Shown: positions 20,066 to 62,467 of the stretch, one piece after another
Position numbering within the stretch: the stretch's first letter is position 1
Layout: each line of letters starts with the position of its first letter
Source of the DNA: Owenia fusiformis
Taxonomy: Eukaryota; Annelida; Polychaeta; Sabellida; Oweniidae
Length of the DNA stretch: 64,000 nucleotides
NCBI GenBank assembly: GCA_903813345.2
Contig: CAIIXF020000001.1
Span: forward strand, 9,463,598 to 9,527,597
Direction: 5' to 3'
Notes under the pieces: model-generated
Database searches by the model: none
Seen by the model: the letters and a program-made list of their open reading frames with translations, nothing else
Told to the model about the DNA's origin: nothing
Program-made: the position numbers and the translations under genes

Positions 20066-23000
20066 ATGGGAACTGATAACGTAGAAAGTCATATTGAAAA
20101 TGGTTCCAGTAAGAAAAACGAAAAGAGAATTGATAAGAACGTTAAGGCAAAACCTAAAGGATGTGGACAATGGTTTAACAAATACTTTTGCGAAGGTAGG
20201 TAATCTATTTTTGTCTTTTTATCATTTTTTATTTTTATATATGCTACGTAATGCTTTTAAGGGTCTGATCTTTTGGAATCGTTTCTATGGATATGTTACG
20301 GATGTCACCGACATGACCTATCCGCTCAATTCGTGGAGGAGAGCAGAAAACTGTTAAAGCCCAAATTTTCACTGACAAAAAAATTCACTATTTTGTCCAT
20401 GTGAAATGTTTCATGGGCATTAAATTTCACTGTTTGAGGAAATATCCAATTGAGTTCAATGTTAAATCAAATATTCACTGTGCCTTTATTTTCACGGTCC
20501 AGCCTCTTTGACAGCGAAAATAGTGAAAATTAGGGCACCTTGAAAATTAGTGCTTTTTCAGTACTCGTCTATAGTGGAATTCCAATAATTGAAGTTTCCA
20601 AAAGGTACCGCACTGTTTTTTAAACATTTTCACATCTAAAATCAATGTAAAATTATGACATGAAATATTACCTTGAAATCGAAATTTTACATTCACACCC
20701 GTGGCCCCTGTTCACGGTTGACCCTACTCATTCAGAACAGACAGCTAGGCCTATTGATATAATTATGCCCCTTTTTGAAGGATGGTATTAAATGAAAACA
20801 CTATAATTGCTGCATCCCTGCTCAAAAATTATTAAAATTCATGAATTATAAAAGAGTTGAAGTAATACAAAAATATGGGTGTTTTGATCAACCCTACATA
20901 CGTGTACTTTAGTTACCACCATACAGTACATACACGAATATATCATTGCAGCATTGTTTGGTTTGGAAAATACACAATTGCCTTTGAAATCTTCGTGGAA
21001 AATGCATTTTAAAAAGAAGATTTTCATAGCATTTTAAACAGTTAAAATCTAGGTTAGGATTTTTGAGAAATAAATTTTGAGGCCAAGTAGATTAGACCAG
21101 TGTTTAGCATGCAATGGACTCTTAACCAGCCTAATGGTAAAATATTCTACTGTCAGGATGACTCTGGTAAAAAAACGATTAATTACCAAACATAAATGTT
21201 TTCTTTGACTGCCTAAGGCTTAGAAAATCTTAAAATGAATGAATGAATAGGGTAAAACTGGTATATATGTTATCGTTTCAAACTGACATAGCAACTTTAT
21301 TATAGGTATAGTATCAGAAGGGTAAATCTCTTGACAGTCTGATGGTTCCACAAAATCACAATATAAAATATAAATAGCGATTGGGTCCCTCGTATAATTG
21401 ACTTGTGCTTAATTAATGGCAATAAAATCTGATAAAAAAAACAAGATATAAGTGAAACATTATAGATCAGCATTCTGATACTCATAACATCTTTCTGTTT
21501 CACCTGAAACATGTCAGGACTGAGAAGAAATGAGATGTCGTGGTTTATCATGATAATAGATCAGTGTCAGTGGATCTGAGTACATCATTTCAATCGACTT
21601 GTAACTTACATTCACTATTTGTAGGACAAGCACTAGAACATGTTGAAGAACTTCCTGTTGATGCCTCTATGGGCAGGAGGTTTCTGGTGAAATATAGACG
21701 CGCGATAGGGTTCCTCATTCCAACAGTCTTCTGTCTTGTTATATGGCTGGCTATAGCCATCAAAAAGAACCTCTGGCCTCTCTTTGTAGATAACTACTTC
21801 ATGAGCATCACGATGATATTTGGATCCCTGATTGCAGGTATATGTATTACAGTAAATAGAGATAAATAAATGATGATATCGTGATTATAACAAAATTGTT
21901 ATGTTTTTAGCTTAACACAACAAAATATCTGTTCTTATACTTTCCAAAAATATTTGGGAGCGGAATTCATATTCGTTCATCATGTGCATATGCTGATAAA
22001 CTGTACTTTGTTGAATCAACACTGCCATCTTTCGGTGTTTCAGGGATGACAAGTGAAGGAGCTGCAGCTATCGCATTTCCTGTGATGACACTCGCTTTCA
22101 AGATATCTCCAAATGTTGCCAGAGATTTTGCCTTAACCAGCCAAAGCTGCGGTATGTCTGCAGCGACCTTCACAATTCTGTGGATGCGGGTTAAATTGGA
22201 ATGGACAGCCATTATTGTGTGTTCTGTCGGAGGTATGTTTGGTGTTATCATCGGCCTTGAAGTAATAGATGGCGTCCTGACTCCCCCACAGAAGAAATTC
22301 ATATTCGTTTCGATATGGTTTTCTTTTGGATTCGCACTGTTTCTATTGAACCGTTATAGACACAGGCGCACTTTTGAGGTGATTCCCTATATGAATCCTT
22401 GGAAGATCCTCGTTCTGTTGCTGACTGGGTTCATAGGTGGGATATTTACATCCATAGCAGCGAGTGGAGTGGACATTTGCACGTTTAGTATTCTCACCCT
22501 CGTGTTTCGAGTCTCTGAGAAAACAGCTACTCCTACTTCTGTAATACTGATGGCTGGAAATGCACTGTTCGCATTCTTCTGGAGAGATGTGATGCAGGAG
22601 GGGATACACCAAGATGCCTGGAGTTATTTGGCAGTAACGGCTGAGATTGTAGTAGTCGGGGCTCCACTGGGCTCTGTCATTGGCACCCATTTCCATCGGC
22701 TTGTCCTGGCTGGTTTTGTGTACATCATCGGTACTGCTGCGCTGATAGGTGCCTTTGCAATTGTAAGGCCACTGGCACCTGCACTTGTTGGTCTTTCTGT
22801 TGGAATTATTGTCGGAGCTTTCATTGTATTCGTTTGTCTGACACGTGCAGGTCAGATGCTGTTATCCTCTGTGGAGGAACAGGAGAATAATGATCTAAAG
22901 AAGAATGAAGATCCGCTGGAGAACATGGACAACAAGAACGAACACAACGAAGTAGACACAACCATAGAACCCACTGGAGGAAATACCAATAACTCATTTC

Positions 23001-23089
23001 AAGATCTATACATATACAGTAAAACCTGCGAACAGGGAATGCTCTTCGGACTGGAGGAAAGTTTCCTTGTTCAGAGGTTTTCCCTATAG
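20066..23089 (+). CDS. Sulfite exporter TauE/SafE-family membrane transporter
   Basis: Polytopic membrane protein of 462 aa; the family exports sulfite, sulfoacetate or related organic acids in bacteria, while animal members are poorly characterised, so the substrate is unknown. Exons: 20066-20195, 21625-21837, 22044-23089, with phase-1 junctions. The N-terminus is hydrophilic (MGTDNVESHIENGSSKKNEK) and cytosolic by inference. Helices follow, including IGFLIPTVFCLVIWLAIAI and the two family repeats: GSLIAGMTSEGAAAIAFPVM and, in the second half, GFIGGIFTSIAASGVDICTF. A charged cytosolic tail rich in Glu/Asn follows the last helix. From 23017 the frame runs into a TIR element, which supplies the last ~23 codons and the TAG. 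The gene is transcribed towards astacin gene C (convergent). Confidence 0.85.
20359..20536. repeat. Short inverted-repeat element in transporter intron 1
   Basis: GCCCAAATTTTCACT at 20359-20373 is mirrored by AGTGAAAATTAGGGC at 20522-20536, one mismatch. More TTCACT/AGTGAA copies lie between. It looks like a small non-autonomous MITE-like element; no clear target duplication was identified. Confidence 0.4.
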
Positions 23090-24463: not shown

Positions 24464-27400
24464 CTAAAGGGTTAGAATACAGTTACCACTGGAGTCTTCA
24501 TGGAACCCCTGGCAGCACCTTGGACACGGCCTGAATGTGAAAAATTCATGAATTTACAATTCATTTTATTTTATGACTAGTAAACACATGTTAAAACAGA
24601 TGTACGTGTAGTTTAATTCATCCTTTAAAATAGCAAAAATTGCTTTTCCAAGAAAAGGATATCTTAATCCCCGCCCTTATAAATTAGTTATTCAATTAAA
24701 TAATACTTCAATTTTAATAAACATACAAGGTATTAACATGTAAAATGTCACCACCTGCCATTTGTAACAGACGCCAACCACCAAACACTAACCACAAAAA
24801 TGTTGGAGACTATAACAATATGCCATCACCAAAAGTTATCATATTTAATAACTTACCTTTTACATTGTTCTGTATGTGGGAATGCATCACATATTCTCCT
24901 ACTTGCACAATCATTCGTCTCTGCACATCGTTGTATGTTACATGGCTTAGATTCAGTATTCACTTTACCAAAGAGGCTGGTAGTGATCCTCCTGGAGCGG
25001 TACCTTAAGCCACAACCTCCACAGTTACTGCTGCACTCACTCCAGCTACTCCACTCTGATATCACAGCAACTGTAATTAAATGAAATATGTACGTGTAAA
25101 TACTCCGTTTATGTGGTGTATTTAAAACTACATGTAGACTAGACAACAGCAATGTTAAAGCAGAGGGAATCATGTAGGAGACCTCATCGAGATACTTTTC
25201 GTAAGAGTTTTTGTGAGAGGGTTGCAGTGTTATTTCATAGTATGTGAGTATTGAAAACAGAGAAACCTGTTCTATCACGGCTACTATTTTATCTATAAAT
25301 TTTCTATCAGCTGGCCAAGTTATTAAATTCCCTTGACAATGCCTGACAGACGAGTACATGTTCCAAGTTCCCTACTGAGTTGAATTTATGATTTAAGAAC
25401 CTAAATAATTGTAGAATATGTTAGTAAATGTTGCAATCCATACCTTCACATTTTCCTCCTGGCAATTGAACAGATTCCTCAGGACATCTGCCATCTCTCT
25501 GTCCGGGTGTTGTTTCCAGCTCAGCAGCAGGGGTTGGCATGGCTAGATAATACATATAAGAATATCCATAAAAACAATTGTATTTTTTCCTTATGTGTTT
25601 AAATAAGGAATCAATTCATATGCTTAAGTAACCTTGTATAGTGTATGAAATGAACTTCTTGTTTATCAATGTTTGATCATTTTAACAATTTATACATCAA
25701 AAGATAACATAGATTTACATGTACATAAATATTGAAATAAATGAATATATATTTTAAAAAAAATTATAAATGCATTCTTACCTATTTCACAAGTTGTCCC
25801 AGTGAACCCTGGTGTACAAGTACATTCAAACCCATCTCCACTATCTGTTATAGTACATGTACCTCCATTTAGACATCTCGCTGCACATATGTCTACTTCT
25901 GAAAGTAGGGAAATGCATTACAATAGACAAATGGAGGAAATTATGACAAATATTCGTTACGATGTCATTCTTACAGTTTCAGGGCGGAAATATAATTTTC
26001 TAAAACTACTAACAATTTTTGTTAACACTGCTGTCTACAGTGACATCATTAATCTAGCTAATACACCATAGTTTACTTGGTTCACTAAAATGGATCAGTA
26101 GTATATCAAAGAGGTCTATTAACTGTTTGAAATCTTTGCTACTGTACCATAACAGTGGAACAATCAATGATTGTGAGTGCATTCGTTAAATATTTATTTT
26201 ACAATATGAAGATTTATTACCTATTTGCTCATCACAATTCTTTCCAGTGAATCCCTCCAAGCATTCACATGTGTAGTCATTGATGTCATCTATACATGTA
26301 CTACCATTACCACATGGAGCATTGGCACATTCGTCTATAGGCTCTATAAGAATACAACAACAGCAAATATAAGGTTTGACAGTGCTTGTTAGGAATGACA
26401 GTAAGGCCTGCTAAATATTTGTTAAACATAAAGGGTAGCACTAAATTCTATATTTAATCCATTTATTTTATTTAATATGAGTAATGATTTGGCAACTTAT
26501 ATAGAATATGTTTAACCACGAGGTTGCGAGTTCGAGACACATGTGCTCCTTGTGTTTATTCATTTACCTGCATAGAATCTTGCCTTGAATCCAAATCTCT
26601 TGTAGCGGGAGACAGTATGGTTGGCTCTTAAGAGAACAAGCATTTCAGATCCTTCAGATTCTACCCTCTCACTGGGAGTGGAATAGCCACAAAACCTAGC
26701 AAGGAAACAACAATCTAAGTTAAAAAACAAAATTTAGAATCATGTAATAGAAGTGACTAGCACATGCCTGTGTGAGAATTTTCAAAATCTCCCTGGTCAA
26801 ATATTTCGTTTGCCTCTTTAGGATTTTGGAGTAACAAAGAAAAATGGCGTTTCGATTATTTTCCTCCCAAAAACAAAACAAATGGATAATTAAGCTCATG
26901 CACATGTCAGAAAGTGTCAGTAGCACAAGTTGACATTGCTTTTGTTATTTATCATACACAAGTCTACAATGACAATATCCACATTGATTTTAATGTGGTT
27001 CTCAAAAATAAACTGGCAATCCCGGCATAATATTTGGATAGAGCATGAAAAATAAGTTGAGACTCTATTTTGAAGTTTGAGCTCATGTTGTACAAACCTT
27101 GGTCCAGTTTGTTCCTTGTTGTTCTTGTATTTTACTTCTACCCAATGAAAGCAAGATTTTCCATTTGACGATGCTGTTATAAACACTCTGAATGTGTCCA
27201 CAAAGTACAACACTACCCTTGAACCGGCTGGGGCCTGGAAATAATTGTGCTAAAATTAGTACAACCAGATTTGGAACCAAAATAACCACATTTCAAAGTT
27301 CAATGTGCATAACATTATGTTATGAAGCAAAACCAAACTTCAATCATATTTGAAATTTCTCAATAAATTATAGGATTATAATCAATTAACACATTAAGTG

Positions 27401-36249: not shown

Positions 36250-38583
36250 AATGGAATATTAATTGCGACATGGCCAAGTTCTTTGTTTTATTATATTGCC
36301 CATGTCTTTGTCCATAATTGGGATATTAATTATGACATGGCCAAGTTCATTGTTCATTATATTGCCCATGGCCCTGTCCATGATTGGGATTATAAGTATG
36401 ATATGGCCAAGTTCATTTTTTTATCATATTACCCATGTCCATGTCCATGATTGGAATATTAATTATGATATGGCCAAGTTCATTGTTTTATAATATTGCC
36501 CATGTCCCTGTCCATGATTGGAATATTAATTATGATATGGCCAAGTTCATTGTTTTATCATATTACCCATGTCCATGTCCATGATTGGAATATTAATTAT
36601 GATATGGCCAAGTTCATTGTTTTATCATATTGTCCATGTCCATGTCCATGATTGGAATATTAATTATGATATGGCCAAGTTCATTGTTTTATAATATTGC
36701 CCATGTCCCTGTCCATGATTGGAATATTTATTATGATATGGCCAAGTTCATTGTTTTATCATATTGTCCATGTCCATGTCCATGATTGGAATATTAATTA
36801 TGATATGGCCAAGTTCATTGTTTTATCATATTGTCCATGTCCATGTCCATGATTGGAATATTAATTATGATATGGCCAAGTTCATTGTTTTATCATATTG
36901 TCCATGTCCATGTCCATGATTGGAATATTAATTATGATATGGCCAAGTTCATTGTTTTATAATATTGTCCATGTCCCTGTCCATGATTGGAATATTTATT
37001 ATGATATGGCCAAGTTCATTGTTTTATCATATTGTCCATGTCCATGTCCATGATTGGAATATTTATTATGATATGGCCAAGTTCATTGTTTTATCATATT
37101 ACCCATGTCCATGTCCATGATTGGAATATTTATTTTGCTATGGCCAAGTTCATTTTTTTATCATATTACCCATGTCCATGTCCATGATTGGAATATTAAT
37201 TATGATATGGCCAAGTTCATTGTTTTATCATATTACCCATGTCCATGTCCATGATTGGAATATTAATTATGATATGGCCAAGTTCATTGTTTTATCATAT
37301 TACCCATGTCCATGTCCATGATTGGAATATTAATTATGATATGGCCAAGTTCATTGTTTTATCATATTGTCCATGTCCATGTCCATGATTGGAATATTAA
37401 TTATGATATGGCCAAGTTCATTGTTTTATAATATTGCCCATGTCCCTGTCCATGATTGGAATATTTATTTTGGTATGGCCAAGTTCATTGTTTTATAATA
37501 TTGACCATATCCCTGTCCATGATTGGAATATTGATTTTGGTATGGACAAGTTCATTGTTTTATAATATTGCCCATGTCTTTGTCCATGATTGGAATATTA
37601 ATTATGATATGGCCAAGTTCATTGTTTTATCATATTACCCATGTCCATGTCCATGATTGGAATATTTATTTTGCTATGGCCAAGTTCATTATTTTATAAT
37701 ATTGCCCATGCCCCTGTCCATAATTGGGATATTAATTATGACATGGCCAAGTTCATTGTTCATTATATTGCCCATGGCCCTGTCCATGATTGGGATTATA
37801 AGTATGATATGGCCAAGTTCATTGTTTTATAATATTGCCCATGTCCCTGTCCATGCTTGGGATATCAATTATGACATGGCCAAGTTCATTGTTTAATTAT
37901 ACTGCCCATGTTCCTGTCCATGATTGGGGTATTGCGAAAGTTCATAATTTAATTATATTGCCTATGTGCCTGTCCATGATTGGGGTTTTGTGGTGTAGCC
38001 AGATTCATTGTTTAATTATATTGACCATGTTCCTGTCCATGATAGGGGTATTGTGGCGTGGCCAGGTTCATTGTTTAATCATATTGCCCATGTTCCTGTC
38101 CATAATTGGGATATTGCGAAAGTTCATTGTTTAATTATATTGCCCATGTTCCTGTCCATGATTGGGATATTGCGAAAGTTCATAATTTAATTATATTGCC
38201 CATGTTCCTGTCCATGATTGGGATATTGCGAAAGTTCATAATCTAATTATATTGCCCATGTTCCTGTCCATGATTGGGATATTGCGAAAGTTCATAATTT
38301 AATTATATTGCCCATGTTCCTGTCCATGATTGGGATATTGCGAAAGTTCATAATCTAATTATATTGCCCATGTTCCTGTCCATGATTGGGATATTGCAAA
38401 AGTTCATAATTTAATTATATTGGCCATGTTCCTGTCCATGATTGGGATATTGCGAAAGTTCATAACCTAATTATACTGCCCATGTTCCTGTCCATGGTTG
38501 GAATATTAATTGTGGTATGGCCAAGTTCATTGTTTAATTATATTGCCCATGTTCATGTCCATGATTGGGACCATGATTGGAAT
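36250..38583. repeat. Minisatellite (67-bp and 56-bp units) abutting the zinc-finger gene
   Basis: About 35 tandem copies. The distal part (36250-37930) uses a 67-bp unit containing ATGGCCAAGTTCATTG and CCATGTCCATGATTGGAATA. The part next to the gene (about 37930-38510) uses a 56-bp variant with ATTGCGAAAGTTCATAA. The array enters the C-terminal coding region of the zinc-finger gene: on the minus strand each unit resembles the codons for MNLAMPQYSNHG and HGHEHGQY. Some distal units contain AATAAA on the minus strand (first at about 37665-37670), a possible polyadenylation site. Open frames on the plus strand here are repeat artefacts. Confidence 0.95.
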
Positions 38584-41500
38584 ATTGTGGCATAGCAAGG
38601 TTCATAGGCATTGCATGATGCATGTTCAGCTGTAGCTGTGAGTGTTGGGGCATTTGCATGGGCATAGTTGAGTGCATCGCATTCGTGGGCACTGTCTGAA
38701 TTGTCATTGGGGGTATATAGGTAGGCATACTATTGCTCCTGTTTTCAGCCTCCTCGCTTGTTTGGGGTCTGCTATTAGCTACAGGAAATGCACTAATGCC
38801 ATGGGCAGTATCCCTGTGGGCGATCAGCTGATTTTTGGAAGAGAATCTCTCTTTGCATAAGTCACAACTGAACTCAAAATGATCTTTATGCTTCTGGGCA
38901 ATATGTTGGATCAGCTTGGATTCTGAACCACATTCTTTGTTACAAATATAGCACATGTATTCTCCCTGGCCGGAGAACTCTCCTGGTTCCTTCTGAGTTG
39001 CATGTTCCTGGTAATTATTTGGGCTATCTAGATCTACAATTCCATGTTTCACTCGCATATGCTGATCTAGCATGTACTTAATACTGTAAGGCTTCTCACA
39101 TAGAGGACAGACATGATTCTTGGGCGTTTTAACTTTGACACCCTCGTGTTTAAATGCCATATGCTGTTTAAGGTTTGCTTTGGTGTTCACAGTCTTGTTA
39201 CAGACTGGGCACACACATCCTTCAAAGTTCTGCACAGGTTTTTGATCTGAATGTTTATAAGCAAAATGCTGGCTAAGTTTTCCCTCTGTTGAACATATCT
39301 TGCTGCACATCGAACATGGAAATGGTCCACCTTGTTTCTTAGTACCGGGGGTTCTCTTGATGGGGGTCTTCTTGATTGGTGTGTCTTTTTTGTGTATCAT
39401 TGAATTATGCTTCCGTAGAGCTTGCTTACTCCAGAGAGATATATCGCATATCTTACATGGGAATTCCTCATTGTCCTCCCCATGGACTGTTCTCTTATGT
39501 TTAGCAAGGCTATTTTTCTGTAGAGCATTGAACCCGCATATGTCACACAGGAATGATTTAACAGGTCCAGTGGGCTCATCATCATCAAAGTCATCAGGAC
39601 CACCAAAATCATTATTATCATCATCTCCATCTTCAGTCTTAATGGGAGCAGGGGGAGGGGTGGAGACAGGCTCAACTGATTCTCTGCTAGGATGGTACAC
39701 TTTCATATGCTTCTTCAAAGTGTCATCTCTGGTGAACTTATGGTAGCAGATACCGCAATACATAATTTTCTTATCCTCGTGAATTTTCATGTGTGTTTTC
39801 AAGACGCTTCTTTCATTGAATGTTCTAGAACAGAACTCACACATGAAACTTTGTCCATGGTGAACACGTTCGATATGGCGCTTGAGACTATCTTTCAACG
39901 CATACTCCTGGCTACACTTGTCACATTTATGGGGTTTCTCATGTGGATGGACATCCTTCATATGTGTTCTTAATTGATCTTTCTCCATAAACGTGCTGTC
40001 ACAAAATTCACATGACATTATTTGAGGCTCTCTGTTATGGCTCTTCATATGATCTCGTAATGTTTTCTTCCGGGCATATTTTCTAGGACACTGGTCACAT
40101 TGAAAGATTTGTTCACCGTTTGGATTAATTATATGCATGTCTAGTTTATGTCTCGTGAGAGAATCTTGGCGGCAGAATAGCTTATTGCAAACATCACAAG
40201 TGAAAGGCTTCTGTCCAGAGTGTTTATTGATATGTTCTACATATCTTGCCTTTTGCATAAAGGCCTGCTGGCAGACCTCACAGGAGTATGTCTCACTGGT
40301 ATGTATACCAACATGCAGGTTATAATGGTCTTGGAGGTCATCCTGTGATGCAAGATCTTCATAACAGACAGCACATTTCATAACATCACTTTCTGGTTCA
40401 CCTGGTACATTCAACCTCATATCTCCAACCTTCTTGAAGTGAGTCATCATATGATCTCTATGGTGGCTCTGGATACGAGATGCTTTTCCACAGATGTGAC
40501 AAGCGAATCCCCAACTCTTGTGAACTTTCATATGGCTGTTTAATAGTCCTGTGCTTCCAAACTTCTTGTTGCAAGTTTCACATTCATACTGGCGTTCCCT
40601 ATGTGTGTCGTAGTGTCTGGCTAACAGGAACATTCTATAGAAAACTTTACTACATTTGAGGCATTTTAGCATGCCATCTTCAACCTTCTCATGTGGTATG
40701 TCATCATAAGTACGTCTCTTTCTTCCTGGGATGATGCCCCTCTTCCTTGGCTGAAGCGATCGCTTTCCACTTGCATTTTTCCTTATAGTTGCATTGGTGG
40801 ATTTCAGCACTTTCACCTCTCTCTGCAACACATCAATGATTGTTAACAGGTCAGACTTTCGTAAATGTTCTAAACTTTCAGTTTTGTTTAGCATCATTGT
40901 TTTACATTGCCTTCTTGTGAGACTTTCTTTCGGCTTTACATCCTCCTCATATTCTTTAGATTTCCTTGCCTTTTTCGTTGGCAGCTTTTTCTTTCCTTTG
41001 TTCGATTTATTGTTCTTTTTTGATTTATTTACACTGGAAATCTTCTTCCTTTTTCTTCCAGGTGGCTTAGTTTGTGTGTAGGATTCAGGTAAAGCTTCTT
41101 CATTGTAATCCATCTGACCTTCTTGCCCAAAAGTCTGCTCATACATATTGTGTTCAAAATAGTTATTAGTGTGATCTGTGTATTCACTTCCCATGCCATC
41201 ATCCTCACCATTCATGTAGCCTCCTTCATCACCTGAACCAGCAATATTTGTCTCAAAATCTCCTGGATTTATGGCTGCATCCTCATAATGTGGGTCAATT
41301 ACTTCAGTCTTTATGTTTGTAAATCCACCTTCATTATCTTCTTGCAGTGGATCTGTCATTTCAGTACTGGGCTCTACATGCTCTGATGTATCATTTGTGA
41401 ATGGTTCATTTTGTTTAGCACTATCACTAACATATGGCTCATCATGTTCAGTTGTCTCCTCATACTTCAATGCAGGTGTATTTTGTATTAATACCCCATT

Positions 41501-41584
41501 AACAACAGCATCGTCAACAGAAGACCCTTGGTGATCAGTGTCACTACCAATGGTGTTGTTTCCTCCTTCAGACGCCATTTTCAT
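38534..41584 (-). CDS. Multi-C2H2 zinc-finger protein, 18 fingers, single exon
   Basis: Predicted nuclear DNA-binding protein of 1016 aa, uninterrupted. Two ATGs are close (41584 and 41578); AAAATGGCG at the second is the better initiation context. The first ~230 residues are acidic, then basic with a nuclear-localisation-like KKNNKSNKGKKKLPTKKARK. Eighteen C2H2 fingers follow, from LKCLKCSKVFYRMFLLARH to FSCDLCKERFSSKNQLIAH. Fingers 1-11 lie in one block, then an acidic spacer (DGDDDNNDFGGPDDFDDD) and fingers 12-18. Finger 3 is atypical. Spacing varies and the canonical TGEKP linker is rare, unlike recent KRAB-type arrays. The tail is Met/His/Gln-rich and its last ~23 codons are part of the adjacent minisatellite. 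No KRAB, BTB, ZAD or SET domain is visible, so the role and targets are unknown. Confidence 0.92.
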   Translation of the reverse strand: MKMASEGGNNTIGSDTDHQGSSVDDAVVNGVLIQNTPALKYEETTEHDEPYVSDSAKQNEPFTNDTSEHVEPSTEMTDPLQEDNEGGFTNIKTEVIDPHYEDAAINPGDFETNIAGSGDEGGYMNGEDDGMGSEYTDHTNNYFEHNMYEQTFGQEGQMDYNEEALPESYTQTKPPGRKRKKISSVNKSKKNNKSNKGKKKLPTKKARKSKEYEEDVKPKESLTRRQCKTMMLNKTESLEHLRKSDLLTIIDVLQREVKVLKSTNATIRKNASGKRSLQPRKRGIIPGRKRRTYDDIPHEKVEDGMLKCLKCSKVFYRMFLLARHYDTHRERQYECETCNKKFGSTGLLNSHMKVHKSWGFACHICGKASRIQSHHRDHMMTHFKKVGDMRLNVPGEPESDVMKCAVCYEDLASQDDLQDHYNLHVGIHTSETYSCEVCQQAFMQKARYVEHINKHSGQKPFTCDVCNKLFCRQDSLTRHKLDMHIINPNGEQIFQCDQCPRKYARKKTLRDHMKSHNREPQIMSCEFCDSTFMEKDQLRTHMKDVHPHEKPHKCDKCSQEYALKDSLKRHIERVHHGQSFMCEFCSRTFNERSVLKTHMKIHEDKKIMYCGICYHKFTRDDTLKKHMKVYHPSRESVEPVSTPPPAPIKTEDGDDDNNDFGGPDDFDDDEPTGPVKSFLCDICGFNALQKNSLAKHKRTVHGEDNEEFPCKICDISLWSKQALRKHNSMIHKKDTPIKKTPIKRTPGTKKQGGPFPCSMCSKICSTEGKLSQHFAYKHSDQKPVQNFEGCVCPVCNKTVNTKANLKQHMAFKHEGVKVKTPKNHVCPLCEKPYSIKYMLDQHMRVKHGIVDLDSPNNYQEHATQKEPGEFSGQGEYMCYICNKECGSESKLIQHIAQKHKDHFEFSCDLCKERFSSKNQLIAHRDTAHGISAFPVANSRPQTSEEAENRSNSMPTYIPPMTIQTVPTNAMHSTMPMQMPQHSQLQLNMHHAMPMNLAMPQYSNHGPNHGHEHGQYN

Positions 41585-44239: not shown

Positions 44240-47200
44240 ATGGCTGGCATGGGTAGGCTTGATGCTGTCATATCCAGCATAGATGACATTGAAAAAGGTG
44301 GGCTATTTTTTTGTCAAAATCAAAAAGGTTTTTTCCTCCCCTTTTCAGCTTTATAATGTTGGACTCTTTTGAATCTAGGTCGCAATCTTGTATCACAAAT
44401 TTATTGCAAGTCCGAGAACCCTGGACCCGTTTTCTTAATGCAGGTTGCGCACAGACTGTATATATAGATTTTAGGAAGCCTTAGATTCTGTGAGTCGTCA
44501 CGCAAGCACATGCTATCTATTGCAAGACTTACGCCTGCCACAACCGTCACCATGTTAATCAGTGTTTTTTAAGTAGCGCAAGGATCCTGCCATGACCGTG
44601 GTAGTGTTATCGTGTAAGCCTGGTATAACCGTGACAGGCTGGTATAACCGTGACAATGCTGTATTCTATTGCAAGGCCTGTCATGACCCTGGAAGTGTTA
44701 TCGTGGAAGCCTGGCGCGACCGTAGCCTTTATTGTGGTTTATAAGCGAATGTGAATATTAATGTATAGTGGTAGTTTTGATTTTGACATGATTAAGGTAG
44801 TTAAACACCTTGATCATAGTATTAAACTGTGACGAGGATCACTTAAAATTGTTAAGGATATTCCTGGCATTAATGTCATACATATTTACTAGTCATTGCA
44901 ATACATTATAACGGTCATAGTAGAACTAAGCCTAAATCTCTACATTACCACCCTCATACCTGGCCTTGCAATACTATATTACATTGTCACGGTCATACCA
45001 GGCTTTGCGATCCCATAATACATTGTCATGGTCATGCCAGGTTTTCAAATACACATTGTCACGGTCAATTATAGCAATCATAAATTTCTACATCACCACT
45101 CTCATACCCGAACTTGGAATACTATATAACATTGCCATGGCGGTCATACCAAGCCTTGCAATACTATATTACATTGCCATGGTCATGCCAGGCTTTGCAA
45201 TACACATTGTCACGGTTATAGCAGTCCTAATCGTAAATTTCTACATTACCACTCTCATACCTGAACTTGCAATACTATATTACATTGTCACGGTCATGCC
45301 AGGCTTTGCAGTACTATATTACATTGTTACGGTCATACCAAGCCTTGAAGAACTATATTACATTGTCACGGTCATGGCAGGCATTGCAATATAATACAGC
45401 ATTGTCGCGGTTATACCAGGCTTTCACGATAACATTACCACGGTCATGGCAGGATCCTTGCGCTACTTAAAAACACTGAATAACATGGTGACGGTTACGC
45501 CAGGCGTTAGTCTTGCAACAGATAGGGTCTCCACGCAAGGCTGCTTACTAAGCTGGATACCATGGGCATAGCGCCTATTATGCAAAATATGCACAGGCGT
45601 ACCAAATAGATTTGAAAAAAATTAAAAATGTGTTAAAATGCATTAATTTATTTGCGAATTTATTGATGCTTCCTACCGTATCTGTATGTTTACCATTGTC
45701 AACATTTAAAGTTGATGAAAACGCTTAGATTCCATCAAATAACGTCTTTGAAAAGAAATTTTGCGGAGGAGCATACCCCCAGACCCCCGCGATGCACGGC
45801 AGCTCCGAGTGTGCATACCAACTCAAAATATAGCCCTACACCCATGGATACCAATGTCAAAAGTTACCCGTCTTTTTGTCATTATGAGTCTAAGAAAGCA
45901 TTCTTGAGTTTCAAATTGATATCTGTAATAACTTGAAACCATCTTCTGATTTATTCCACTTACCTTTTTTGTTTCTCCAAATATATTGTAATGACCCTTA
46001 ATATCAAGTTGCTACAATGGCCCAGCTGTAAGCCTTTTTAGCTCAGTCGGAAGAGCATCAGACTTTGGATCTAAGGGTCCTAGGTTCGATTCCCACACAG
46101 GCACACTTTCTTTCAATTTCTTAATCTGGATTTATTAGGATAAGGGAATTTTTTTTATGGGGGTACCCTCAAGCGATTTTGTTTATGTCTGTAAACGACA
46201 TGCCCAATATTGTGTCAGACAGCAAGATAGACCTTTTCCCTGATGTCACCAAAGTAAATTGTTCGTTGATTTTGCAGGTGTAATGGTGGCCACAAGTTTG
46301 TTGCAGCAACGAGCCATTGAGGTCCGAGCAAATAGAGTAAACTGGCAATCATATTTGCAGTGAGTTATATATTATCCAAAATGCTCTTATGATTTCTCTG
46401 TAATAAGGGCCCATCCCCTAATAAGCAACTACCCCACTTCTCAAAGTTTGAGAAATATTGAGGAATGATCAAATATTATTCAAATATTTAATTCTATTGA
46501 GGTGAATACCTGTGCATCTTTCACAAGTGATATTCCACGAAGCCCGAAGGGCTAGTGGAATATCATCTTGTGAAAGTGTCACCGAAAATGGAATTAAATA
46601 TTTGTTTTATTATATCACTGTCATTACATCTTCTATAATTAGATAAGTCATATGTTAACATTGAAATACATTTATATTTCCTTTAACAATATAACAACTA
46701 CTACGATTTTGATACATTTTCCAAATCAATCACATCGTCTTTGCTAGATATCCAATCTTGAAAGATCTTCACTGATCTTTTTGTTGCCTTTATTGTGTTA
46801 TCTGAATGAATATTCCTGTGGATTCTATCAATTTCTTCAGCAGAAATATTTGGAAACCTTTGTTTACCGTCTGCCATTTTGGTTATTATGGGATATATAA
46901 AATGAAAATTAGACTGGACTAAGTCAACCCCGGGGATGTATAAGTCTTGACCGTTGAATATCATTTGATATTCACCGAAAGTCACGTGACTTCCGTTGAA
47001 TATGGCTAGTTATTTTTTGGTCACGTGTAGGACATGGACCAATAAGAGAGTGAGGAATATGACAGTGATATAATAATATCAAATATCCAATAAATAAGAA
47101 CAATATGCTGTTACTCAGTCGTGATGCTGCAAATAAGTCATTCTTGGCAAAAATTGCCATGAAATTTCCAGGTATTTTTGACTATCTTTCTTATATGTTT

Positions 47201-50200
47201 GCTCAAAAATATCATTGTAAAGCTCAAAACATTTTTTCAAAAAAAATACTTCTGTATCTGATTCACGATAAAACGATTGGACCTCAGACAGAGAATACAG
47301 TTCTCATATTAGAATATCCTTTTTTCAATTTCAGGGGCCAGATGATATCCCAGGAGGATTACAACTTCATCACACAATTTGACAACTCTACACCTGAGAG
47401 TCGCAAGAAACTTTGCGCTGAACATGGTCCACAGTGTGTTAAAACATTCCTCAATCTAATCTATCACATTTCCAAAGATCAGACTGTACAGTATATCTTA
47501 ACCATGATAGATGATATGCTACAGGTATGTGTTTGCATGAGAATTAATTATCTTACTTTGATGATCATTACTATTTACATTATTAATTATTTTGATAAAT
47601 ATTTGACTTTTATTTCCTATATGGTTAGAAGTAGAATTTTGCTAATTTTGGTCACATATGTATGTTGAAAATAGAATTAAAGAGCACAAAATAATGATAA
47701 ATGTTTTTAATTCATATTTAACTTCATTACAGGCTTATCGATCACTACTAACTTAGATTAATAGGGTTTGTCTATCAAATATTTTTAACCTTATTGAAAT
47801 ATTTTGTCCAAAATTTTGTATTATCATATGAGTACTAGCTATATGTGTTTCTTTCTAGACCTGTGGTATACATAACTTAAACAACATTTTTAATCTCATA
47901 CCCTACTTCATCTATAGGAGGACAAGTCCAGAGTGGAGCTGTTCAAAGAGTATGCCAAGAAGAAGAAAGAGTCCTGCTGGACACCATTCCTTAACATGTT
48001 GAACAGGTCCGATGGTTTCATTGTGAATCAGGTACAGAAGCATTCTCTGAAAAAATGGTTTGAGATTTACAAGGATATTTTGGAGCAAATAAATATGTTT
48101 AAACAAAATTTTCAATTATGAATCAAAAGAAAAATTGGTTATCTAATATTTACATTTTATTTTCATCACTTAGACATAAATTATGGATCCGTTCACTAAT
48201 CCAGCATTTTAACTTTACCAAAGGGCTATTATCAATGAAGTCTTGATGTACTTAATTTTTTCTTTAGTCATTACTATCATTGCTTCTCTTATAGCACACA
48301 AGTACAAAGGTAACATTCAGTAATGTTATTTCAGACTAGCCGCATAATTGCCAAAATAGCTTGCTGGGGGAGAGAACCCATGGATGGCTCAGACTTGCAT
48401 TACTATCTAACCTGGCTGAAAGACCAGATGAAACTACCTGTAAGTACATGCATTGTATGCTAATGAAAAAACATACATGTAAATTGACGCTTCTGCTGTT
48501 ATTGATCAGGAATGTTAGAGCACTGAACATTGCAGACAGTAAGACTATCATTGCTGTTCAGATTTGAGGCACTGTTAAAAATTGCATATATCTCATATGC
48601 TTGATATTTGATGAAACATGTTGTTCGTCTGAAGTTATTCCAATCTAGTTGGCAGAATGGAAGTGTTATCTGATTGGTGATATTGGTTAGTGAAAACACG
48701 GAATGAAATCATGTGTTCTGATATCTGATATCATTATTATTGAATTGATTAAAGCTGTAATGCATTTCTTATAAGCATCTTGCGAAGAGGAGCATTCAGT
48801 ATTAGCAAGCTTCTTGTTTGAAATATATATTATTTACAAATATTGATAAATTATTTTTGATAATATCTGTATCCCATTGTATGGTAAAAGAGATGACTAC
48901 AAATCCCAAAGTATTTGTATAAGAACCTCACCTACCTACTATACTCTGCTTCGAAAAAATATTTTGACATATTAGTAAGTGTATATTTCCATATGTATCC
49001 CTCTAAAGCAAACCATGTACGGTAAAAAAAATGTTTTCAGATCTCTAAACTTCATTTTACCAACTAAAATCTTCAAAATATAATATTTTATATGATATAA
49101 TGCTATTATTTCTAGGAGTTACAAGACCACAGACATCTTTTTTCTCCCAAGACACCATATCGGGGATCTGGCGGGGTGAATCTATGATTCTTTATATCAG
49201 ATGCTTATATGAAAGAAATATGCACAATGTTCACTTGACTTATAGCAATTGAAATTTGGAATATATTCAATTGCTAAAAATCCTTTGTGTTCATTACTAT
49301 GGGTCCTAACATGATGCCTCAATTCATTTGCATAAAATCGTATACTAATAATCATTTTTGCTGGCTCATCAGTCCTTTGCTTGTTTATTGGTTAAATGTA
49401 TAATTCACCATTTTGCAACTGTCATGATGATTCAAAGTTCATGATGTCCAGTAATCTCTTAATATTGTATATTGTTTCTTAATATCTCTTTACTAAATGA
49501 AATGTCTTTGCATCGATGCAAACATTCTTTCCATTTTCTCTCTATTAAATGCACAGTGCAAAATAACCAAGTTCTTTCATGGAAAAGTAAGGTGTTCGTT
49601 TAATGGAGTATGTGTGTCTATTAGAGGGAATATGGTATCACATAATTGCCAGTGATGCAGATTAACTGCCTGCTTTAACTAACATGCAGATTTGAGGTCT
49701 TGCATGTATGATAACATGTAGTTTGAAATTGGTTTTGGGAAATGGAAATGGGTCTATGTTAAAAAGTTCAAGCCATTCATTGATTTGAATGTTTAATGAT
49801 TATCAAAATGATCAAAAAAATACCCAGCACTAGTCTAGTGAGCATGATTATCTAGAAAAAGCAATCTTTCTCAAATACTATCACAGTATATTATTGTTTG
49901 ATATTTTCAGAACAACGAATATCTGCAAACAATAGCTCGTTGTCTACAGATGATGTTGAGGATAGATGAGTACAGATTTGCCTTTGTGGAGGTAGATGGC
50001 ATTAGCACGTAAGTAATATGACCAGATGAATATACAGAAAGGTATGAAATGGAAGAGACAGTTTATAGAAACAAAGTATGCCTAGTATTGCCTACAACAT
50101 TGGAGCTAGAAATTCTCAATGTTCAGTCATGTAAATCTTGATATACTGTAATAAATCAAGTTTATCTCTACCTCACACATTCGGTTATACCTGTTTCATG

Positions 50201-58196: not shown

Positions 58197-61100
58197 TGAT
58201 GCTGTCCCCAGCTCCGATTTCGGTGATCGGCTAGTAAAAAAGGTTTGAGGGTATCATTTTGTTCCAGACACTCTCTAGAGTAAATTAACCTAACTTGAAT
58301 AAAAATGTGTGGTAAGTAAATTCGCTATGGGCAGTTAAAGAGGCGCCATCTATTCATTTTCAAACAGGGGGTAGGGGTATAAAATAATTTTTAACACATT
58401 TAAATAGTAAAATGACATTGAAATACTAATAAAATCTTATCAAAAACATTATTTACAATCAGTATAAATTTTCTTGTGTGAATTAGGCTGAAAATCAGAG
58501 CATATTTTGAAATTCACTACAGGGGCGCCACCTATTTTCATACTTCTACCACGTGTAATAACTTATTTTAGATTCGTTAAGGTACGAAATGTACTGAAAA
58601 AAATTCATTCTGAAGGACCTATATATGTTCATACCACATACTTAAAATTGGATCAATAGCTTTTGTACAGGCGGAGAAAAAAATTCTTGAAATTTAAAAT
58701 TGTGGCATCATGCAGGATAGGGGTGACCATATCTCACATGATTAACTTCCAAAATATGGAGCATATGTATCTCAAATGTACTCAAAATGGTGTATGTACT
58801 CTTGCTTTGTCATAATATTACTAATAAGAAGTAGAAAAATGATTGTACATTTTAAAAAATATTAATTCTCATTTTGGCTTCTGACGTCCCAGGGGTGACC
58901 ATATCTCACCTTAATAACTTCCAAAATATGGAGCATATGTATCTCAAATGTACTCAAAATGGTGTATGTACTCTTGCTTTGTCATAATATTACTAATAAG
59001 AAGTAGAAAAATGATTGTACATTTTAAAAAATATTGATTCTCATTTTGGCTTCTGACGTCCCAGGGGTGACCATATCTCACCTTAATAACTTCCAAAATA
59101 TGGAGCATATGTATCTCAAATGTACTCAAAATGGTGAATGTACTCTTGCTCTGTCATAATATTACTAATAAGAAGTAAAAAAAAATAATTGTACCTTTAA
59201 AATAATATTGATTCTCATTTTGGCTTCTGACGCCCCAGGGGTGACCATATCTCACCTTAATAACTTCCAAAATATGGAGCATATGTATCTCAAATGTACT
59301 CAAAAAGGTGTATGTACTCTTGCTTTTTCATAATATTACTAATAAGAAGTAGAAAAATGATTATACATTTCAAAAATTTTAATTTTAGCTTCTTACGTTC
59401 CTGGGTAATCATATCGCACCATATCATAATAATAATAACTTCTAAGATATGTAACATATAATCCTCAAATATTCTCAGAAAAGTCCTGTCTTTTTCATAT
59501 TACTAATGAAATGTAGAAAATGATTGCATTTTTTTTATAAATTTTAATTTTAACCTCTGGTGTCCCAGGGGCTATCTCACCTTGATAACTCTCACGATAT
59601 GCAACATGCATCTCAAATGTGTGCTCAAAATGGTATAAGTATAGTCTTGTTTTGTCATATTTATTGAGAATCATAAAATCAACAGTTCAGAATCAATGGA
59701 TTTTGACTGTGTCCTCTACAGCTACATATAATTCAGGGCAAATAATATCTGCTTTCAAATATTTGCATCTGCTCCCCAAACACCCTTTACAAGTACAATG
59801 GATGAGATTATTCCCTTGCATACCTTTGACCCAACATCTTTTGTAATCCATACAGGAATCCTTTAGCCTGTCAATAGTGGGAGTACTTTACTCCATTCAT
59901 GAAGTAATGGCAACTGCTAATGTAAGGTGTTAACATGTTATCCTGTGCCCTGTAATATATGCACCTTGGATTATACACTGAATTAAGGGATTTTGAGTAT
60001 GTAAAATACGGGAAAAGGAGCTCTTTGTAATGATAAATCTTTCTAGCCACATTAACATTCTCTAGTTTGCATGTTTGTCATACAACATACATTGATTGTA
60101 ATGAAATATTAATCTATGATTGTGATGTTCCACACTTCTAGGTTCCTAAAGAAGAGATTAGCTTTTGGAACAATTGCATTATTCTTGGCATGGTAGGCCA
60201 TACAGTGAATACAATTGTTGAGATTGGGCAATAACAATATAGCACAACATGACAAACCATGCAAACTAGAGAATGTCAATCAGGATTAGAAGCGACTTAT
60301 CGCCCTTGTAATTTAGCAGTGGGACAGTTTGGTGTATGTTTGGGCATAAATGCGCCTTTTAGGCCTAATTTTTCAGGATATTTTCAAAATTTCGGGTCAG
60401 ATTTGGGGTTAAGGGGCCAATTTGGGTAAATGAGGCTAGGCTACTCACACTACTGATAGGCTACCAGTATACAAAAGATGTTGCATCCAAGGCATGCAAA
60501 AAACTTATCGTCCATTGTTCCTGTAATATAAGGAGTGTTTGGGGAGAAGATGCAAATATTTGAAAGTAGATCTTAATGTCTCTGGACTATATGTAGCTGA
60601 AGCCTGCAGGGGAGACAGTCCAATCCATTAATTCTGAACTTCTGATTTCATGAATCTCAATAAATATGACAAAACAAGACTATATTTATACCATTTTGGG
60701 CACGCATTTGAGATTCATATGTTGCATATCGTGAGAGTTATATCAAGGTGAGATATAGTTGCCCCTGGGATATCAGATTCGGAAGCTAAAATGAAAATTT
60801 CAATTCAAAAAAGGTGCAATAATTTTTTCTACATCTCATGAATAATATTATGACAAAGCAAGACCATATGCCCCATTTTTGGTATATTTGAGTTGTATAT
60901 GTTACATAATTTTAGAAGTTATTGAGGGACTTCAGAAGCTAAAATTAAAATTTTTTAAATGTATAATCTTCTTATCAGTATAATATTATGACAAAGCAAG
61001 AGTACATACACCATTTTGGGTACATTTGAGATACATATGCTCCATATTTTGGAAGTTATTAAGGTGAGATATGGTCACCCCTGGGATGTCAGAAACCAAA

Positions 61101-62467
61101 ATGAGAATTAATATTTTAAAAAATTTGCAATCATTTTCCTACATCTTATTAGTAATATTATGACAAGACAAGACTATATACACCATTTTGAGTACATTTG
61201 AGATACATATGTTACATATTTTGGAAGTTATTAAGGTGAGATATGGTCAGTGGTCATCCCTGGAACGTCGGAAGCTAAAATGAAAATTAATATTTTTAAA
61301 ATGTACAATCATTTCTCTACATTTTATTAGTAATATTATGACAAGGCAAGACTATATACATCATTTTGAGCATATTTGAGATACAAATGCTCCATATTTT
61401 GGAAGTTATTAAGGTGAGATATGGTCACCCCTGGAACGTCAGAAGCCAAAATGAGAATTAATATTTTTTAAATCGTACAATCATTTTTCTACTTCTTATT
61501 AGTAATATTATGACAAAGAAAGAGTACATACACCATTTTGAGCACATTTGAGATACAAATGCTCCATATTTTGGAAGTTATTAAGGTGAGATATGGTCAC
61601 CCCTGGAACGTCAGAAGCCAAAATGAGAATTAATATTTTTAAAATGTACAATCATTTTTCTACTTCTTATTAGTAATATTATGACAAAGCAAGAGTACAT
61701 ACACCATTTTGAGCACATTTGAGATACATATGCTTCATATTTTGGAAGTTATTAATGTGAGATATGGTCACCCCTGGGACGTCAGAAGCCAAAATGAGAA
61801 TTAATATATTTTAAAATTGTACAATCATTTTTCTTCTTATTAGTAATATTATGACAAAGTAAGAGTACATACACCATTTTGAGTACATTTGAGATGCATA
61901 TGCTCCATATTTTGGAAGTTAATCATGTGAGATATGGTCATCCCTATCCTGCATGGTGCCACAATTTCAAATTTCAAGAATTTTTTTCTCCCCAGGTACA
62001 TAAGCCATTGATCCAATTTTTAGTATGTGGTATGAACATATATAGGTCCTTTAGAATGAATTTTTTCAGTACATTTCGTACCTTAACGAATCTAAAATAA
62101 CTTATTACATGTGGTAGAAGTACGAAAATAGGTGGTGCCCCTGTAGTGAATTTCAAAATATGCCCTTATTTTCACCCTAATCCACACAAGAAAATTCATA
62201 CTGATTGTAAATATTGTTTTTGATGAGATTTTATTAGTATTTCAATGTCATTTCACTATTAAAATGTGATAAAAAATTATTTTATACCCCTACCCCCTGT
62301 TTGAAAATGAATAGATGGCGCCTCTCTAATTGCCCATAGCGAATTCACTTACCACACATTTTTACTCAAGTTAGGTTAATTTACTCTAGCGAGTGTCTAG
62401 AACAAAATGATACCCTCAAACCTTTTTTACTAGCCGATCACCGAAATCGGAGCTGGGGACAGCATCA
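58197..62467. mobile_element. 4.27-kb foldback (near-palindromic) element
   Basis: The ends are TGATGCTGTCCCCAGCTCCG and its exact inverse, flanked on both sides by GTA (a possible 3-bp target duplication). The two ~2-kb arms are inverted copies out to out: CGATTTCGGTGATCGGCTAG, GGCGCCATCTATTCATTTTC and GGGGTAGGGGTATAAAATAA all recur inverted at the right end, and near the centre CATTCTCTAGTTTGCATG (about 60055) pairs with CATGCAAACTAGAGAATG (about 60260). The outer half of each arm holds ~172-bp tandem subrepeats marked by AGGGGTGACCATATCTCAC: left at about 58719, 58891, 59063 and 59236; right (inverted) at about 61073, 61252, 61423, 61595, 61766 and 61936. No transposase frame. Confidence 0.9.

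Follow-up and report, generated by a model that had tools for sequence, protein, structure and literature searches.

Coding VNTRs are known from terminal exons, and in the human CEL VNTR, for example, several of the units are translated. Internal tandem repeats alter human gene structures, according to the accessible part of PMC2812944. Nearer to the locus described here are the amphioxus 'mirage' minisatellites, which the accessible sections of two reports (PMC3087553, PMC3902484) present as tandem copies of exon-intron boundaries in the globin genes BflGb6 and BflGb9, in Adh3 and in TnC, with similar mirage-like repeats in PGBD5. According to the same sections, the mirage units of BflGb6 are 81-100% identical, two haplotypes carry 6 and 3 of them, and units at the edge of a mirage cluster escape homogenisation (PMC3087553, PMC3902484). 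For the birth of minisatellites, the available portion of PMC3389668 describes the model of Haber and Louis (1998), which relies on short direct repeats at the flanks; it also describes a slipped-strand model (reference 14 of that paper), the key feature of which is an incomplete terminal unit.

Here we describe a minisatellite in the annelid Owenia fusiformis that spans the stop codon of a C2H2 zinc-finger gene. In the literature on how minisatellites arise, on arrays that overlap stop codons and on satellites derived from genes, no title or abstract beginning among the matches listed describes an array seeded by the end of a coding sequence.

Results

The array and its unit classes

The array lies on the minus strand of the window, that is, the whole 64,000-nucleotide stretch of DNA that was analysed. 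It runs from position 38605 down to about 36253 and is composed of 37 units including a coding copy at the end of the zinc-finger gene (Table 1). With head-to-tail units of 31-75 bp and TRF periods of 67 and 56, it is a minisatellite by the usual definition of units of roughly 10-100 bp; TRF reported a 56-bp array at 37882-38507 and a 67-bp array at 36252-37927, which a further row extends to 38115. The initial annotation had placed the array at 36250-38583, with about 35 units beyond the gene over 2.3 kb. The tandem run is real, but there are 36 such units (35 whole and one truncated), the far end is at about 36253, and the gene-side start at 38605 falls within the coding sequence.

Segmentation yielded one unit of 75 bp, 23 of 67 bp, two of 66 bp, two of 63 bp, eight of 56 bp and a truncated one of 31 bp. 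The two length subfamilies first proposed should accordingly be three main classes of 56, 63 and 67 bp. The 56-bp class corresponds to the 63-bp class minus 7 bp after ATGAACTT, the 67-bp class to the 63-bp class with 4 extra bp, in most cases TTAA or TAAA, behind the seventh codon, and the 66-bp units have one base fewer again; these derivations come from our own alignment, in which a rule in the script placed the gaps, and MAFFT set some of them elsewhere. The earlier description of 56-bp units next to the gene and 67-bp units farther away holds for the two main runs but not for the first unit after the stop, which is 67 bp long. Likewise, it is correct that neither 56 nor 67 bp keeps the frame, but both 63-bp units consist of 21 codons and do keep the reading frame of the gene. 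Translated in that frame, these two units give nearly the same peptide as the coding tail, so that the C-terminus of the gene and its stop are found nearly intact within the noncoding array.

Table 1. Positions of the array units, the zinc-finger gene and other annotated open frames in the window
Feature	Position	Strand	Description
C2H2 zinc-finger protein CDS	38534..41584	-	single open frame, 1016 aa; TAA stop 38536-38534; zf-C2H2 E 1.1e-46
Unit 0, coding copy	38531..38605	-	MNLAMPQYSNHGPNHGHEHGQYN* plus ACA
Unit 1, first noncoding unit, 67 bp	38464..38530	-	left part like 67-bp class, right part like 56-bp class
Seven 56-bp units (63 minus 7 bp)	38072..38463	-	stop position TAA or TAG in 7/7
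63-bp in-frame unit	38009..38071	-	MNLATPQYPYHGQEHGQYN*
63-bp in-frame unit	37946..38008	-	MNLATPQNPNHGQAHRQYN*
Isolated eighth 56-bp unit	37890..37945	-	from segmentation
Distal block, 24 units (22 × 67 bp, 2 × 66 bp)	36284..37889	-	from segmentation
Truncated last unit, 31 bp	36253..36283	-	seventh codon CAA kept, versus TAA in 18 or more distal units
TauE/SafE sulfite exporter match	21911-23089	+	open frame, E 5.2e-12
Spondin-like TSP1 match, below Pfam cut-off	24853-25371	-	open frame, E 3.3e-6, 27.7 bits versus 41
Part of a V-ATPase subunit H match, probably an exon	47069-47668	+	open frame, E 1.6e-16

In all 12 of units 0-11, the coding copy included, the aligned stop position is occupied by TAA or TAG. 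The same position in the distal block is AAA in 22 of the 24 units and, after a one-base deletion, -GA in the other two. It is out of frame with the unit's own ATG in each of the 56-bp and 67-bp units. A coding protein repeat has at least two units in one translated frame, and here a single unit precedes the stop; in the noncoding array, no open stretch of the sense strand exceeds 53 codons, and the one of this length reaches the end of the stretch examined.

There are 27 distinct sequences among the 37 units. The 56-bp and 67-bp blocks are near-identical internally and the edge units 1 and 36 are divergent; yet units 13 and 34 (37757-37822 and 36351-36416), both 66 bp long with a shared one-base deletion, are identical. 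The occurrence of this rare form at two places 21 units apart indicates that sequence has also been copied over longer distances in the array. No clear period of a regular higher-order repeat was detected in the distal block, where the mean edit distance was 4.6-5.2 across lags 1 to 8.

The coding tail is a repeat unit

As read from the sequence, the open frame of the zinc-finger gene shows no splice boundary. Unit 0 is made up of 23 codons, the stop and ACA, and it starts with ATGAAC at 38605, so the gene-side boundary of the array is inside the zinc-finger CDS. Its 75 bp represent a 63-bp core with a 12-bp in-frame internal duplication (SNHG/PNHG). The observation in the initial annotation that the last 23 codons and the stop of the 1016-codon CDS are a tandem repeat unit was borne out, with the small correction that the protein ends in HGQYN, one residue longer than the HGQY given. 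The similarity is far beyond chance: the 72-nt coding tail scored 69 against the noncoding array, whereas 300 mononucleotide-shuffled versions of it scored 17.8 on average and never above 30, and 81 further pieces of 72 nt taken from this CDS scored 24 or less.

Beyond the array, neither the 60 nor the 120 nt upstream of ATGAAC resembled the unit significantly (lowest p 0.096 in 12 shuffle tests), and the same was true of the 120 nt past the distal end (18 tests including the gene side, lowest p 0.070). An older, decayed unit inside the CDS upstream of the boundary was unsupported by these shuffle tests. The resemblance of an MPQHS stretch just upstream to MPQYS in the unit reached p 0.067 and was dropped as evidence. 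The boundary tests, like the test of amino-acid composition below, did not discriminate between a coding tail that seeded the array and one that was taken from it.

The unit is confined to one locus

The genome searched comprises 498,259,871 bases in 525 contigs. With searches that pass over very common words and simple repeats, two DNA queries from the array had no matches outside the locus in the whole genome. A 29-base pattern, for which 3 mismatches were allowed, matched 35 times in the genome, every time within the array (34 noncoding units and the coding copy), and its reversed control had zero matches. An origin from a transposon, satellite or dispersed repeat was rejected, the DNA and pattern searches having found, within these limits, no unit copies at other loci. 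A second gene with the same tail was also sought, and the 82-aa tail as a protein query matched only itself at E values up to 10. For the zinc-finger region (934 aa), scoring 49 of 1470 candidates gave at least 148 matches; among the candidates scored, the best non-self match had an E value of 2.1e-37 and the others were 31-45% identical, similarities that are ordinary for the fold.

Relationships among the units

In the unit phylogeny foreseen in the initial annotation, the coding copy joins the tree where the 63-bp pair (support 74) meets the remaining units (support 66), but the tree is unrooted, its support is weak, and the 36 units on which it is built are short and exchange sequence. Identity to the coding copy is higher in units 1-11 (0.861) than in units 12-35 (0.830; Mann-Whitney p 0.004). 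The difference is found in the right half of the unit (0.934 proximal versus 0.868 distal, p 3e-6) and in the left half (0.792 versus 0.770, p 0.018), and along the array there is a falling trend only (Spearman -0.32, p 0.059); neighbouring units are not independent in any of these tests.

Variable sites were counted by codon position after exclusion of the 12-bp duplication and the 4-bp insertion, along with the codon that follows the stop. At first, second and third positions, units 0-11 have 8, 3 and 11 variable sites of 20 each (third versus others p 0.049, which is weak because six overlapping unit sets were tried). All 37 units together have 14, 5 and 13 of 20, with no third-position excess (p 0.27), and the distal units have 10, 1 and 6 of 20, with a deficit at second positions (p 0.005). 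Because the noncoding distal units show a second-position deficit as well, part of the codon-position pattern is not due to selection, and the proximal deficit was not significant after splitting by base composition (p 0.073 and 0.339). Units 0 and 1 differ at 8 sites over the twenty codons up to the stop, 7 of them third positions; the binomial probability is about 0.003 for a pair that was chosen after the data had been seen. The codon-position signal for a coding history is thus weak and partly contradicted by the distal units.

The length change of the coding copy is divisible by three, and the three noncoding indel types are not. Since the plus-4 insertion occurs at both edges of the array, in units 1 and 36, it is old, and the 67-bp form could equal the 63-bp form in age. 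The array breaks off at a different phase of the unit at each edge, so one of the edges was trimmed whichever way the array began. Amino-acid composition was dropped as an argument for a native origin of the unit: unit 0 is weakly above shuffles, at p 0.044, and unit 9 reaches p 0.10, but the remaining frames do equally well or better, and the frame of the gene is not singled out.

Tandem arrays in the genome and elsewhere in the window

The frequency of tandem arrays was estimated from twelve 10-kb stretches (120,000 bases), one at a fixed position in each of contigs C1-C12 (32-62 Mb). They contain 11 arrays of at least 300 bp with a period of at least 10, three of them at least 1 kb long, which occupy 12,537 of the 120,000 bases. 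Scaled from this small sample, arrays longer than 1 kb would number on the order of ten thousand genome-wide, and with 25,000 genes assumed, about a hundred array edges would be expected by random placement in the last 75 bp of coding sequences. Large arrays being common here, one that crosses the end of a CDS is notable but expected somewhere, and hence unremarkable. The sample includes 13 open frames of 150 codons or more, and four of these, from two of the stretches, overlap an array. Elsewhere in the genome, tandem arrays lie in or across long open frames of 787 and 190 codons at L026 3580-4137 and L028 1648-2077, respectively.

The window itself contains further tandem repeats. A 172-bp repeat forms two blocks about 1.6 kb apart (58719-59384 and 60968-61945), the TRF consensus units of which are reverse complements by eye. 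A degenerate 39/78-bp array at 44936-45424 is open for 152 codons on the plus strand (39 is divisible by three), and this open frame has no Pfam match.

Discussion

The array is probably a single-locus minisatellite seeded by the zinc-finger gene's own 3' coding end. The initial annotation had suggested this origin, and it fits best with the confinement to one locus, the position of the coding copy in the tree, the higher identity of the proximal units and the in-frame 63-bp units; the direction from coding tail to array is favoured by the sequence but not proven. A segment of about 63 bp, consisting of 19 codons, the stop and three bases, would have been duplicated in tandem by slippage or unequal exchange. 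The copies beyond the stop would have been under no coding constraint and would have gained frame-breaking indels (minus 7, plus 4, minus 1), which along with substitutions would have been tolerated because these copies sit past the stop. Local expansion and exchange between neighbours may then have produced two homogenised blocks, one of 56-bp units close to the gene and one of 67-bp units at a greater distance. The first copy would have remained coding, acquiring just the in-frame 12-bp duplication.

An opposite course of events, in which a noncoding minisatellite just downstream became fused to the CDS when the former stop was lost or a short stretch was deleted, and so provided a repeat-derived C-terminus, is unlikely. 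Situated past the zinc fingers, the tail is probably a disordered region that tolerates change, any open frame would serve as such a tail, the composition does not favour the frame of the gene, and the edges of the array are at different phases, all of which would suit a fusion of this kind. However, the unit taken up must have been of the 63-bp class, to which only two of the 36 noncoding units belong, and yet the neighbour of the coding copy is 67 bp long. The differences between the coding copy and unit 1, mostly at third positions, suggest instead a long coding history, although for a pair compared post hoc.

It is less likely again that the protein once possessed several in-frame 21-residue repeats, and that stops and frameshifts rendered all but the first of them noncoding. 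Such a past would agree with a 63-bp length divisible by three, with the lean of the proximal variable sites toward third positions, and with the AAA at the stop position of most distal units in place of TAA, since either state may be the older one. Against it stand the TAA or TAG at the same place in every one of the 12 proximal units, both in-frame 63-bp units among them, the lack of a third-position excess in the distal units (6 of 20 versus 10 at first positions), and the single unit within the open reading frame.

Stop-spanning minisatellites might be a recurrent route by which C-terminal codons are lost or gained, with the in-frame, stop-bearing 63-bp units acting as a reserve that exchanges with the coding copy and rewrites the tail. 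We regard this as a speculation with little chance of being right. As the stop is within unit 0 and the other units follow directly, the start of the array should fall in the 3' UTR of the mRNA, barring a 3' intron. The stop codon of the gene sits inside an ATTAAA hexamer, and the array adds eight others. We would give even less credence to a functional 3' UTR element under selection, such as a structured RNA or a group of polyadenylation signals: 7 AATAAA and 8 ATTAAA do occur on the sense strand of 36252-38536, with none of either on the opposite strand, but these counts follow from copying one unit, the folding of three stretches was not clearly better than that of shuffles (z -1.24, 1.16 and 0.64), leaving an unusually stable RNA structure unsupported in them, and the units have diverged into 27 sequences. 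The array is expected to have no function beyond that of passive 3' UTR sequence, possibly with alternative polyadenylation signals, and we think that it is a neutral by-product.

The array is mostly an ordinary minisatellite at an instructive place, and the kind of process involved is already known. It is a fairly clear case in that one copy has stayed in a reading frame, which allows the sequence that founded the array to be named, and it offers a natural comparison of one and the same sequence with and without coding constraint. Further arrays of this type are expected elsewhere in a genome so rich in tandem repeats.

The repeat resembles the human CEL VNTR in its location at the C-terminal end of an open reading frame, but differs from it in that one unit is translated here and the rest lie beyond the stop. 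As in the slipped-strand model, a local unique sequence appears to have become an array with an incomplete end unit of 31 bp, although later trimming could also explain this unit; the likeness is to the model as outlined in the available portion of PMC3389668. The nearest published parallel to an array that spans a stop codon would appear, from the accessible sections of PMC3087553 and PMC3902484, to be the amphioxus mirages. Like them, the array consists of imperfect units, probably copied from a structural boundary of the gene itself and located at that boundary. Unlike the 6 and 3 mirage units of BflGb6, it numbers 37 units, and its unit spans the end of a CDS and the stop, with no splice boundary visible, which places it outside the mirages proper; it resembles a mirage at a stop codon rather than at a splice site.
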